Of a stretch of 64,000 nucleotides of DNA, positions 17,055 to 41,340 are shown piece by piece; positions within the stretch are counted from its first letter, which is position 1, and each line of letters opens with the position of its first letter. The DNA comes from Pseudomonas sp. MM213 (lineage in GTDB: Bacteria; Pseudomonadota; Gammaproteobacteria; Pseudomonadales; Pseudomonadaceae): positions 5,890,001 through 5,954,000 of the forward strand of contig NZ_CP081943.1 in the NCBI RefSeq assembly GCF_020423045.1, in the 5' to 3' direction. The notes under the pieces are model-generated. The model did not search any database. It saw only the letters and a list, made by a program, of their open reading frames with translations, and had not been told where the DNA came from. Both the position numbers and the translations under genes were made by a program.

Positions 17055-17657
17055 TTAATGCATCCTCACTGGATAGGCCATCTATAGGCAGACAAAGTTG
17101 TCTCTGATCACTTCACGGGGATCGGACTATCCCCCCCAATGCGCCACACCACTTATCGATGGCTTTGGCGTTATTCCTTGCGTGCAACACACGAGCGGGC
17201 GCAGTTCGCTGACCGGGCTGAACAGCGAGCGACCTTTGCTAAAACGGTTTTTAGTGAGGCGGTTACCTGGACTGCGCGCCAGAGTGACGCTGGCAGTTAC
17301 GGACGCTACTGTCCGCCGACCTGCCCCCCCGAAAAGTAAACGGCCATGTAGGTACAGAGCCGGAATACGCCTGCCATGATCATAGTGAGCTAACTCCTTT
17401 TGCCAATCTGATCATTGAAGCTAACTTGGAAACTGGAGCCGTTATGACTTCTTATTGTTTGACGGTAGTTCAATCAAACCAAAGTGCCATGATTTTAAAA
17501 AAAACCATGGGTGCAAAAGCTGTAGAAAGGCAGGTGGGTGAGCGGTGCAGGCAAGGTCGTAGCGCAGTGCGATTGGCTGATACCGAGGGGGAAATGAAGG
17601 CAAAAAAAAGGCCCATCAGTCAGTCAGAACGGGCCTTTTTCATGTCTCAGCCTGCCT
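17055..17657. other. Intergenic region upstream of rcpA and downstream of the BRO gene
   Basis: About 600 bp. Two short frames (17098-17379 and 17426-17677, +) have neither family likeness nor good ribosome sites and I leave them out. The left part should contain the rcpA promoter (read leftwards) and the right end the terminator of the BRO gene. I see no further structure I can name. Confidence 0.5.
17605..17640. terminator. Bidirectional terminator of the BRO gene
   Basis: AAAAAGGCCC (17605-17614) and GGGCCTTTTT (17631-17640) are exact reverse complements around a 16-nt loop. This gives a T-tract on either strand. It lies 18 bases beyond the stop of the leftward BRO gene. Confidence 0.8.
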
Positions 17658-18164
17658 TCAACTGCAAATGCCCATGATCGGAAACGGTCGTTGCGCCTGC
17701 ACCAGATCCGGCATATCCCGCCACTTGATCCACGCCGAATCTTGCCAGTGCAGCAGCGGCACCGAGAGGCCGCCCCATTGCAACGAACTCAAGCTTGGAA
17801 TGTTTTCGACGGATGCCGCGTTCGACTCGCGTAGCGCAGGTATGACTTCGTTGCTCAGCCATTGGCGCAGGTTGCGGTTTTCCGGGATGAAATGGTGGAC
17901 CAGCAATGCGTACATTCCGGACTCGCTGACCATGAGCGATTCGACCGTTTTGCCGTTCTTCAGCAGCCAGACATATCGGCGTTGATCGGGATCGAGTTTA
18001 TGGGTGAGTCGTTGGTCCAGCGGGCGGCCCATCAAACGTCCCAGGTCATGGACGCAGAACCAGGCTTGGTTGGCTTGGATGATGGCGTGGAGGAAGCGGT
18101 TGTGGCGGGGGAAGATGGTTGGGGTGAAGCAGGAGGCGGGTGTGTTTTTTGTGTGCTCTGACAT
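17658..18164 (-). CDS. BRO-N domain antirepressor-like protein
   Basis: 168 residues. Residues 10-120 resemble the BRO N-terminal domain of phage antirepressors: FLHAIIQANQAWFCVHDLGR, then LDPDQRRYVWLLKNGKTVES, MVSESGMYALLVHHF and RNLRQWLSNEVIPALRE. The C-terminal part lacks a recognisable KilA or antirepressor C-domain, so this is a short BRO protein. The ATG at 18164 is chosen; the frame is open a further 83 codons upstream, but that DNA is a structured leader resembling phage C4 antisense RNA. No other phage genes are adjacent, so this is an isolated remnant or a domesticated regulator. Confidence 0.8.
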   Translation of the reverse strand: MSEHTKNTPASCFTPTIFPRHNRFLHAIIQANQAWFCVHDLGRLMGRPLDQRLTHKLDPDQRRYVWLLKNGKTVESLMVSESGMYALLVHHFIPENRNLRQWLSNEVIPALRESNAASVENIPSLSSLQWGGLSVPLLHWQDSAWIKWRDMPDLVQAQRPFPIMGICS

Positions 18165-18172
18165 GACTTGAA

Positions 18173-18183
18173 TTCCGTTTTGA
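18173..18183 (-). promoter_or_regulatory. Antisense target site in front of the BRO start codon
   Basis: TCAAAACGGAA on the minus strand, exactly complementary to the loop-flanking segment at 18260-18270 of the leader. It covers the weak ribosome-binding region, so pairing would block translation of the BRO protein. Confidence 0.6.
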
Positions 18184-18195
18184 AATGGAAAGTCA

Positions 18196-18302
18196 CCACC
18201 AACCCTTCGACAGGTTGGGTGGCGAACCGAGTGGCGTTCGAAGTCGGGACACTTCCAGGTCAAAACGGAAGCCGAAAGGCCCGCGCCACACGGCCCGCCA
18301 TA
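18196..18302 (-). ncRNA. C4-like antisense leader RNA of the BRO gene (candidate)
   Basis: Read leftwards, the leader folds into successive hairpins: GCC-TTTC-GGC (18271-18280), GAAGT/ACTTC (18240-18255), CGAAC/GTTCG (18223-18240) and CACCAACC paired with GGTTGGGTG (18197-18221). The leader segment TTCCGTTTTGA (18260-18270) is exactly complementary to TCAAAACGGAA (18173-18183), nine bases before the BRO start codon. With two gaps, pairing extends to about 18 of 20 bases. Phage P1/P4 C4 RNAs use the same layout: a structured RNA upstream on the same strand, pairing with the antirepressor ribosome-binding region. Family membership is inferred from layout and a remembered consensus. Confidence 0.6.
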
Positions 18303-18603
18303 AAGCAGAACTGGGGATAGAAAAGCAGCCACAGTTCTATGGGGGCGCGTAAGCACCGTTCTGACATTTCCCGGCTTCGACTCCGGATCGCTGATTTTGC
18401 AGCGACGGGACAAAGCCTATCGGTCAGGCGCTCGCGGCGACAAGTCTACTCTGGCGACGCTTGTCGTAGGAATCAGAGTCTTTTCAGGGAGGCTCGATCT
18501 GTAGGAATTTCCTGTTTTTACTTGAAGTGCAGAGGCACCTCGCCGCACAGCTAGTTTTTCCTATAGGTTTTCCGCTTTCAGTCATGAACTGCGGGTTTAC
18601 TGC

Positions 18604-19854
18604 ATGTTGATCGAATTTTCAGTGGCCAATTACCGCTCCTTCCGTGAGAAGAAAACCTTATCCATGGCCGCAACGCCGCGCCTGAGTAAAAAACGTAACG
18701 TGTTCAAGCCTCCCGTAGAGGGAGAAAAGCTTCCTGACTTGTTGAAAGTGGCCGCTATTTACGGACCCAACGCGTCAGGCAAATCTTCGCTGGTCCGGGC
18801 CATGGGAATCATGGGCCATTTGCTCGCTTTTTCAGGCTCGTCAAATGACGAAGCTCTCCCGGTATCACCGTTTCGTTTCGACTCGCAACTCAAAAACGCC
18901 CCCAGCTTCTTTGAATACAACTTCATCCAGAGTGGGCTTCGCTATCGGTTTGTTCTGCGGATGACGGCACAGCGGATAACCGAAGAGCAATTGGTTTCAT
19001 ACCCAAAAGGCAAAGAAACGCTGCTGTATGAACGTCGTTTCGATGAGGAGGGTGAGAAGTATGTTTTCGGCCCAAGCCTTGAGGGCGGCAAAGAAGTGCA
19101 TAAAGCCTGGCAACGCCTGACCAGCCCCAAGATGCTTTTTATTTCGCAGGCCGTTGCAAACAGCAGCGAAGAGCTGACGCAGTTGCGTCGGCCGTTCAGC
19201 TGGTTTCAAACCGGCCTTCTCGTGATTGAGCAGAACAACATGATTGGCCTGTCTGCCGCATCGATCAGGTTTCTGCAGATGGCGTCGAATTACACGTGCG
19301 ACTTACGAGACTTTCTAAAAGCAGTGGATATCCCGGTGACCAATATTCAGCTCAATACCGACGCGGACTCCGTCCCGACTGACAAAAAACTCACGCTTAA
19401 GGAGTTTTTCGCTGCGGCACAAAAAGACAAAGTGACCCTGACGCATACAAGTCTTTTGGGAAGAGCCGATTTCGATTTTTCGGAGGAGTCGGGCGGCACC
19501 AAAAACCTGATTGGGTTCTGGTTACCGTGGTTCATGATCAATCACGCAGACGGGAGCGGGGTGCTGTCTGTCGATGAACTGGACAGCAGCCTTCATCCCG
19601 CCATCGTCGCGGAGTTGATTGAGAAACACCTGGACAGCGGGCGGGACACTCAGTTGATTTTCACTACTCACGACACACACTTGATGGATGCCAAGACGCT
19701 TCGACGCGATCAGTACTGGATCACCGAACGCGATGCCAATGGTTCAACCGATCTGTTTTCGGTTCACGATTTTGAGGGGCGAGAAGGCGAGGACGTCGAG
19801 AAACTCTATTTTGAGGGTCGATACCGCGGTCTACCGCTGATAAGGCGGGGATGA
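18604..19854 (+). CDS. RloA-like AAA ATPase of a two-gene defence-type module
   Basis: 416 residues, an ABC/SMC-like ATPase of the AAA_15/AAA_21 group. MLIEFSVANYRSFREKKTLS is the standard N-terminal strand, Walker A is GPNASGKS (54-61), an SGGT signature follows near 297-300, Walker B is VLSVDELD (320-327) and the His switch reads FTTHD (353-357). Together with the overlapping RloB-like gene it matches the RloA/RloB pair and the related AbiLi/AbiLii abortive-infection system. In such pairs the ATPase is thought to sense or hold the effector. The region looks AT-richer than its neighbours by eye, consistent with acquisition, and the gene is divergent from the BRO gene. Confidence 0.85.
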   Translation: MLIEFSVANYRSFREKKTLSMAATPRLSKKRNVFKPPVEGEKLPDLLKVAAIYGPNASGKSSLVRAMGIMGHLLAFSGSSNDEALPVSPFRFDSQLKNAPSFFEYNFIQSGLRYRFVLRMTAQRITEEQLVSYPKGKETLLYERRFDEEGEKYVFGPSLEGGKEVHKAWQRLTSPKMLFISQAVANSSEELTQLRRPFSWFQTGLLVIEQNNMIGLSAASIRFLQMASNYTCDLRDFLKAVDIPVTNIQLNTDADSVPTDKKLTLKEFFAAAQKDKVTLTHTSLLGRADFDFSEESGGTKNLIGFWLPWFMINHADGSGVLSVDELDSSLHPAIVAELIEKHLDSGRDTQLIFTTHDTHLMDAKTLRRDQYWITERDANGSTDLFSVHDFEGREGEDVEKLYFEGRYRGLPLIRRG

Positions 19855-20483
19855 CCATGGTGCGCTCGGCAAGATCATTTGATCGAAAGGCTCCGCGATT
19901 TAAACCTCAACCTAAAGTGTTGGTGCTCTGTGAGGACAGCCAGTCAGGAAAACGATATCTGCAAGAGGCCGCATTTTATTTTCGCGCCAACGCCCTGGTT
20001 GAGATCGTCCACTGCGGAGTCACACACCCAAGCGGCATCGTGGAAAGAGCCATTGCACGTCAGAAGTGGTTCGACAGGGTGTTTTGTGCACTGGATCGCG
20101 ATACGCACCCATGCTTTGAACGAGCCATCGATATGGCGAAGGCACATCCAAAAATCCACGTTATTGCCTCATACCCCTGTTTTGAGTTTTGGCTACTTCT
20201 GCACTTTGGATTCAATCGAAAGCCGTTCAGAGCTGTTGGGAAAAACTCTCCGGGCGACTTGGTGACCAGGAGCCTCAGAGAAAAACCAAGTATGGATAAA
20301 TACGAGAAGGGCAAAGACACCAACTATTTCGCTCAACTACTGGGCGAGCCGTTCCAAAAGGCGAGAACCCTGGCCCCCAAGGTTCTTGAGGACGTCGCGG
20401 TTAGTGGCGAACCCAACCCCAGCACCGAGATTCATTTGCTGATGGATGAATTCGAAGCACTCTCCAAACCGCAGACTCTCTAG
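19851..20483 (+). CDS. RloB-family protein (AbiLii-like, Toprim-like fold)
   Basis: 210 residues. The first strand and acidic turn KVLVLCEDSQSGKRYL (22-37) and the second acidic site VFCALDRDTH (77-86) fit a Toprim-like catalytic core. The block SYPCFEFWLLLHF (107-119) is the strongest RloB-family signature. It starts in an ATGA overlap with the RloA-like gene, so the two are translationally coupled; an alternative ATG lies two codons in. A nuclease-type effector role is inferred from the fold. A symmetric GC-rich hairpin follows ten bases after the stop. Confidence 0.83.
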   Translation: MTMVRSARSFDRKAPRFKPQPKVLVLCEDSQSGKRYLQEAAFYFRANALVEIVHCGVTHPSGIVERAIARQKWFDRVFCALDRDTHPCFERAIDMAKAHPKIHVIASYPCFEFWLLLHFGFNRKPFRAVGKNSPGDLVTRSLREKPSMDKYEKGKDTNYFAQLLGEPFQKARTLAPKVLEDVAVSGEPNPSTEIHLLMDEFEALSKPQTL

Positions 20484-41041: not shown

Positions 41042-41340
41042 ACCACTCATCAGGCCGAGCGTTAGCTCGCCTTCCGCTTTTGATCTGAGCGCCCCCTCGA
41101 GAGGCCGAGTGGAGGTTCTGCGTAGTGGGCAACCCGGCATGGATGCCGGGTTAGCCGCCCCCGGCCATGGATGGCCGATGGCGGCGGGCCCACGGAGCAG
41201 GACCGGAGCGAGGGCATGCCGAGCCATGGCGAGGCACCGAACGAAAGGGGCAAGAGCCCTTGGTTACTTGGGGCTCTTCCAAGTGACTCGCCGTAAGGGC
41301 GAAACCAATAGCCGCCGTCACCAAAAGAACGGATATGTAC
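41042..41340. repeat. Hairpin-rich dispersed Pseudomonas element (candidate)
   Basis: About 300 bases with five consecutive perfect hairpins: CGAGC/GCTCG (41056-41069), AACCCGGCAT/ATGCCGGGTT (41131-41152), CGGCCAT/ATGGCCG (41162-41177), AAGAGCCC/GGGCTCTT (41252-41278) and TCGCC/GGCGA (41288-41302). I recognise the wording (GCCGTAAGGGCGAAACC and others) as a repeated intergenic sequence of Pseudomonas genomes, in which short ORFs are often annotated; those overlapping here look spurious. The biological role is unknown. Confidence 0.6.

Follow-up and report, generated by a model that had tools for sequence, protein, structure and literature searches.

The BRO-family gene at positions 17658-18164 (minus strand) of the 64,000-nucleotide stretch of Pseudomonas sp. 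MM213 DNA analysed here (the window) is preceded by a leader that very probably acts as a divergent C4 antisense switch on this gene, of the kind known from the immI region of phage P1. The presence of a divergent chromosomal C4 switch before BRO is well supported by the sequence; its transcription, processing, repression and relief we infer from P1 and from Salmonella Gifsy-1. On the best reading of the data, the switch belongs to a family of P1-type cassettes that has expanded across the genus, and this wider set is a more interesting result than the single BRO switch.

Anatomy of the BRO leader and comparison with phage P1

The proposed target gene encodes 168 amino acids with a Bro-N domain (PF02498; 36.2 bits against a cut-off of 25.6, E 9.7e-9), and its function, including the antirepressor role named in the initial annotation, is putative. 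That annotation had described a hairpin-rich leader, which the folding energies bear out (-42.5 kcal/mol and z -3.96 for the C4 match alone, z -3.99 for the 271-base leader), and an 11-base complementarity to the region before the start codon, which proved exact. We use the a/b naming of the P1 record, in which a adjoins C4 and b lies over the ribosome-binding site; all leader parts are on the minus strand. The loop element b' (TTCCGTTTTGA, 18260-18270) is exactly complementary to b2 (TCAAAACGGAA, 18173-18183), with 18270-18260 facing 18183-18173, and b2 covers the ribosome-binding site at a distance of 8 bases, rather than the nine first reported, from the BRO ATG (18164). No perfect antisense pairing longer than 11 bases exists between the C4 match (91 bases) and the 50-base stretch preceding the ATG; when that stretch was shuffled 3000 times with a first-order Markov model, a run of at least this length came up in 6 cases. 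The second element, a' (CTTCGA, 18238-18243), is the partner of a2 (TCGAAG, 18205-18210), directly past C4, and of a1 (TCGAAG, 18375-18380). Together with b1 (TCAGAACGG, 18356-18364), which b' can also pair with at the cost of one mismatch or wobble, a1 forms an upstream target copy that the initial annotation had overlooked and that stretches the feature to about 18420.

The C4-like RNA itself (18215-18305) matches the Rfam C4 model (RF01695) with 38.3 bits and E 2.4e-5, and the upstream c4-a1b1 element (RF03163, 18367-18419) matches with 37.5 bits and E 1.7e-7, each in a search of 1.5 kb. The model search that the initial annotation had suggested thus returned a significant match, albeit one under the gathering score of 45 (46.7 for c4-a1b1); a search of the whole window at Rfam gathering thresholds listed no C4, c4-a1b1 or isrK, and for this reason we regard the window copy as divergent. 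C4 is found in 24 of 29 other BRO loci at 36.6-42.2 bits, none of which reaches 45, and 21 other cassettes of the same genome do attain the gathering score. Membership of the IsrK family (RF01394) was rejected, the score being 32.1 bits against a gathering score of 50; phage P1 itself scores 35.1 with this model. The long outer stem of the consensus fold is present, with 16 pairs over 25 sequences and one pair broken in one sequence, but the tetraloop hairpin P2 and the hairpin P3 do not form separately, the predicted folds fusing them with b' in the loop.

The order of parts in the window, proposed promoter, a1, b1, C4, a2, b2 and start codon, is that of the P1 c4-icd-ant region, and in both cases there are two target copies complementary to a' and b', one upstream and one whose b2 lies over the ribosome-binding site. 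The spacing is similar: the gaps a1-b1, b1-C4, C4-a2, a2-b2 and b2-ATG are 7, 66, 3, 22 and 10 bases between the sites annotated in the P1 record and 10, 55, 8, 21 and 8 bases in the window, where we chose the C4 ends for the comparison. With stretches chosen alike, the best duplex of the C4 loop region with the downstream leader is -33.9 kcal/mol in the window and -35.3 kcal/mol in P1. The two systems differ in several respects. P1 scores 68.8 bits with the C4 model and 51 with c4-a1b1, whereas the window falls under the Rfam cut-off and has P2 and P3 merged; the window switch is chromosomal, with many copies of its kind per genome; and the BRO start follows directly after b2, without an icd-like leader frame. 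An ATGA overlap of the icd/ant1 type is found not in the window but in some sister cassettes.

Taken with these likenesses, the parts suggest the following course of events. One transcript, probably starting near 18407, would carry a1, b1, C4 (b', a'), a2, b2 and the BRO frame, and C4 would probably be excised by RNase P, as the accessible text of a study of Acinetobacter baumannii states for the C4 of P1 (PMC5320573). Pairing of b' with b2 over the ribosome-binding site, and of a' with a2, would then switch off BRO translation in cis and in trans. If early termination set the a1b1 segment free as a short RNA, this RNA would bind C4 and lift the repression. A proposed sigma-70 promoter (TTGTCG-18-TAGGCT, 18414-18443) was recognised by eye in an alignment of 22 cassettes, and 5' of it stand two TTCCTAC boxes (18472-18466 and 18507-18501). 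A weak candidate terminator, a hairpin of -7.0 kcal/mol by a rough test followed by a T-run, lies between a1b1 and C4 (18321-18345) and would free the short a1b1 RNA; a possible intrinsic terminator of the whole unit, a GC hairpin with a T-run past the BRO stop (17602-17640), was noted by eye. Neither hairpin is among the matches of a strict terminator scan, and the window leader holds no promoter and no terminator before C4 that passes strict scanning, which counts against the switch.

In a second possible mode of action, C4 would behave like the CI RNA of phage P4, leader pairing causing early termination of transcription rather than a block of translation. The rough test finds T-tailed hairpins in the a1b1/C4 interval of 12 of 22 cassettes of this genome and 45 of 61 C4-bearing BRO loci, and the accessible part of the IsrK paper lays out a P4 CI/seqA/seqC arrangement (PMC4825925). 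The hairpins are, however, not universal, the strict scan shows none before the window C4, and b2 lies over the ribosome-binding site as it does in P1, so that we consider a P4-like action unlikely. The same accessible text describes the IsrK-orf45-anrP region of Gifsy-1 as a short upstream RNA followed by a stable RNA, STnc1160, likened to P4 CI, and by coupled frames. To this extent it resembles the system described here, from which it differs in that the isrK model stays far below its gathering score in the window and no prophage genes are seen beside BRO.

Joint change of loop and target among BRO orthologues

At a threshold of E 1e-20, BRO relatives were detected in 152 of the 298 genomes sampled from the genus. 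The best 30 loci include 26 with C4 and four without, and in the 26 orthologue leaders b' pairs with its own b2 at -18.58 kcal/mol against -14.36 kcal/mol for permuted partners, a difference attained in 0 of 20,000 permutations. A larger set of 77 rows was formed from these 30 loci and 47 of 49 named loci, two partial matches (L135, L136) being dropped, with some genomes reached by two routes and hence counted twice. C4 is present in 61 of the 77 rows. There are two main loop classes, CCGTTTTGA (variant CCGTTTCGA) and CATGTTGA; patterns class 57 of the C4-bearing rows and leave L091, L093, L095 and L127 unclassed. All 27 class-2 loops are paired with the target TCAACATGG, and among the 57 classed rows no class-1 loop occurs with a class-2 target, there being no crossings between the classes. 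Counting against perfect correspondence, several class-1 loop/target pairs hold a wobble or one mismatch, and the closest orthologue (L046) has a mismatch within b2.

The loop class changes at least 11 times on the best protein tree, which comprises 71 of the 77 rows (three short frames and three repeated proteins were left out) and in which 26 of 68 inner branches are weak. Restricted to well-supported branches there are five independent loop switches, and the target follows in all five (p 0.0625). Within the C4 fold itself, two-sided changes affect just 2 of 27 predicted pairs among the BRO orthologues, which counts against the switch; over the 22 cassettes of the MM213 genome the C4 stems do co-vary, with 13 of 23 predicted pairs changed on both sides, which speaks for it. 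The reading of the leader as C4-like and antisense in the initial annotation gains support from the significant C4 and c4-a1b1 matches, the P1-like order and spacing and the joint change of loop and target. The check that it had proposed, a C4 match and upkeep of the complementarity in related strains with the gene, gave a mixed result, as 16 of the 77 BRO rows keep the gene without C4.

Inspected by eye, 14 of these 16 rows keep the promoter region, the a1 region and BRO and have lost the stretch between, through the same type of internal deletion, which extends from the side of a1b1 to that of a2; their b2 sequences are unlike class 2 (CAACTTGG, CAATATTGG and others). The remaining two, L133 and L134, are by eye a different paralogue. 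An apparent tandem BRO arrangement in L098 and L102 was rejected as false frames inside the leader. The shared deletion could be taken to mean that the leader is a decaying remnant of a prophage immunity region without present function, and a DUF6124 locus elsewhere in the MM213 genome (L041:3600-4250, minus strand), which has an a1b1 element and no C4 match, resembles the C4-less BRO loci in this respect. We consider such decay very unlikely: loop and target change jointly, the left-hand neighbours are common to all 45 named loci, as set out below, and the BRO orthologues are under purifying selection with dN/dS of about 0.15. Computed from pairs with dS between 0.1 and 1.5, the median is 0.145 for rows that have C4 (1390 pairs) and 0.167 for those lacking it (87 pairs).

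C4 cassettes across the genome and the genus

The initial annotation had regarded the leader as a stand-alone switch. It does stand apart from prophage genes, none being seen beside BRO, but its genome holds at least 22 cassettes of this kind, itself included. At least 21 further C4 RNAs over the cut-off, which do not include the window C4, lie on the same chromosome; this number may be low because 150 of 1907 candidates were scored. c4-a1b1 has 20 matches in the genome, seven of them over the cut-off, and by position belongs to 19 of the 22 cassettes and to L041; the three cassettes without a match (L026, L027 and L029) nevertheless have an upstream stretch that pairs with the loop. The genes after the 22 C4 RNAs comprise nine of the DUF6124 family, four DUF3077 cassettes, two BRO genes and seven without a Pfam family. 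In L025 the DUF3077 gene follows a coupled 34-codon frame that ends in an ATGA overlap with its start, and in L020 it lies about 500 bases on. Seen from the side of the gene families, and by position, C4 cassettes account for 9 of the genome's 12 DUF6124 places, 4 of its 5 DUF3077 places and 2 of its 3 Bro-N places. No solved relatives were found by sequence for BRO (E 0.01) or DUF6124 (E 1), and DUF3077 gave insignificant matches, the best with E 0.18. Near the third Bro-N gene (L042) no C4 was found; an sRNA-Xcc1 (RF02221, 71.8 bits) lies close to it at L042:3618-3700 on the plus strand.

Within the genus, a sample of 99 genomes includes 91 with C4 over the cut-off, in 1 to at least 39 copies each; a deeper search of four genomes yielded 42, 47, 55 and 43 matches with E of at most 0.001. 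In a class-level sample C4 was present in 18 of 274 genomes, MM213 included. Upstream of C4, at 100-330 bases, a CCTAC motif is found in 17 of the 22 MM213 cassettes (L020-L040 and the window), against 3.2 (sd 1.6) in shuffles, an excess part of which may be explained by common ancestry of the cassettes.

As in the BRO orthologues, loops match their own targets. In the set of 22 cassettes, loops pair with their own downstream target at a mean duplex energy of -24.35, against -19.03 (sd 0.64) for permuted targets, and with the upstream copy at -32.63 against -24.55. A set of 29 of 30 cassettes from four other genomes, which includes orthologous pairs between genomes (L208 was dropped, no start codon having been found), gave -23.82 against -18.00 downstream and -32.64 against -26.23 upstream, and in each of these four comparisons 0 of 20,000 permutations did as well. 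Among the 22 loops, 8 have no better partner than their own downstream target and 14 none better than their own upstream copy, and the separation of specificities is therefore partial. Two of the cassettes, L023 and L024, are recent duplicates, with 256 of 273 coding bases and 36 of 41 and 30 of 33 bases of the C4 arms identical; b', b1 and b2 differ between these loci and match within each. Only one of the 231 cassette pairs (L022/L031) shares 9 or more bases of b2.

Several C4 RNAs in one genome have a precedent in A. baumannii AB5075, whose Group 1 sRNAs comprise 21 C4-like RNAs with a variable specificity loop according to the accessible text of PMC5320573. The resemblance lies in the many copies within one bacterial genome and in the variable loop; the difference is that this text assigns no local target gene and proposes bacterial transcripts as targets, whereas the Pseudomonas cassette sets tested here carry co-varying local targets. 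It could be argued by extension that unlinked genes, reached in trans, are the main targets of the Pseudomonas C4 RNAs and that local complementarity is secondary, and for 14 of the 22 loops another cassette's target does bind better than the loop's own downstream one. Since own targets surpass permuted ones in all three sets, the BRO orthologues and the two cassette sets, with 0 of 20,000 each, we think a mainly trans action quite improbable.

We incline instead, with some reserve, to the view that Pseudomonas has adapted the P1-type C4 switch to the control of cellular genes throughout the genome. There would be tens of dispersed cassettes per genome in many species, up to about 55, each consisting of a promoter, a decoy, C4, a matching target and its own small gene (BRO, DUF6124, DUF3077 or others). 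Similar cassettes with other loops and other small genes are scattered over this and other chromosomes of the genus. On this view loop, decoy and target would change together after duplication and between species as if separate specificities were selected, and the CCTAC box would suggest shared transcriptional control. In the open-access literature, judged mostly by title and the start of the abstract, we recognised no description of local C4 cassettes in Pseudomonas; the accessible text on Acinetobacter already reports multi-copy C4 RNAs, there without assigned local targets (PMC5320573). If the cassettes work as their anatomy suggests, each C4 acquires a directly testable target, and dozens of natural loop/target pairs become available in which the divergence of RNA specificity between duplicates can be studied. 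They would also give a first way into the DUF6124 and DUF3077 families and into the question of why selection maintains a BRO gene that stands alone.

Chromosomal setting, phage links and nearby defence genes

The initial annotation had suggested a domesticated regulator in an accessory islet, and only domestication fits the data. On the left side, all 45 named loci and the window have at least one of three common neighbours, an amino-acid permease (Pfam) and, by eye, an aldehyde dehydrogenase and a polyamine-type transporter; on the right, 41 of the 45 named loci have one and the same kind of gene, in place of which the window has a secretin-type pilus cluster. Because these neighbours are shared, the BRO site appears to be a long-kept chromosomal one, and a recent islet was rejected. 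In keeping with domestication, BRO evolves under the constraint described above, and its relatives in 394 phage records are all below 60% identity. The cargo between permease and BRO varies: of 46 loci, 21 have an AAA_21 ATPase here and 19 an RloB-like gene. The window has both at 18604-20483 (plus strand), divergent from the BRO unit, with AbiLi and AbiLii as best PADLOC matches; they probably form a defence pair, and the site they occupy is variable.

In the flanks of the 21 other cassettes, scanning covered 43 of the 83 frames listed. The 25 Pfam families displayed, of 42, include LysR regulators, transporters and enzymes as well as two reverse transcriptases, Abi_2, a DUF927 primase-like protein and a VgrG-like domain pair. 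Reverse transcriptase genes lie beside C4 cassettes at L024:4488-6146 and L025:4629-6311, one with a trypsin-like fusion. The 22 PHROG families listed in the flanks include a primase, a reverse transcriptase and an abortive-infection protein; no capsid, portal or terminase is named among these 22, many of which are without description.

Such neighbours bear on a further possibility, that the cassettes are type I-like toxin-antitoxin units, with harmful small proteins that C4, as the RNA antitoxin, keeps silent. In P1, the gene that comes first under C4, icd, has been annotated as a cell-division inhibitor; in four other genomes 9 of 10 short first frames have a stop that overlaps the next ATG, as in icd/ant1; and some cassettes adjoin probable defence genes. 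BRO persists, however, without C4 in 14 rows under similar selection, and the cassette products are without known function. We find a toxin-antitoxin role improbable.

Phage records contain one DUF6124 and no DUF3077 relative. A scan of IMG/VR confirmed no BRO relatives and yielded 55 DUF6124 and two DUF3077 loci; C4 over the cut-off was found in all 14 tested of these 57, so that some cassettes probably travel on prophages. In two of these loci (L140, L145) the distance from C4 to the gene is about 550 bases; L145 continues with an AbiJ-type gene and a phage tail gene. In the viral contigs L168 and L174 a single DUF6124 gene is preceded by a pair of C4 RNAs with about 350 bases between them. 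Elsewhere in the window, a TwoAYGGAY RNA (RF01731, 51.9 bits, over its gathering score) lies at 41127-41191 on the plus strand.
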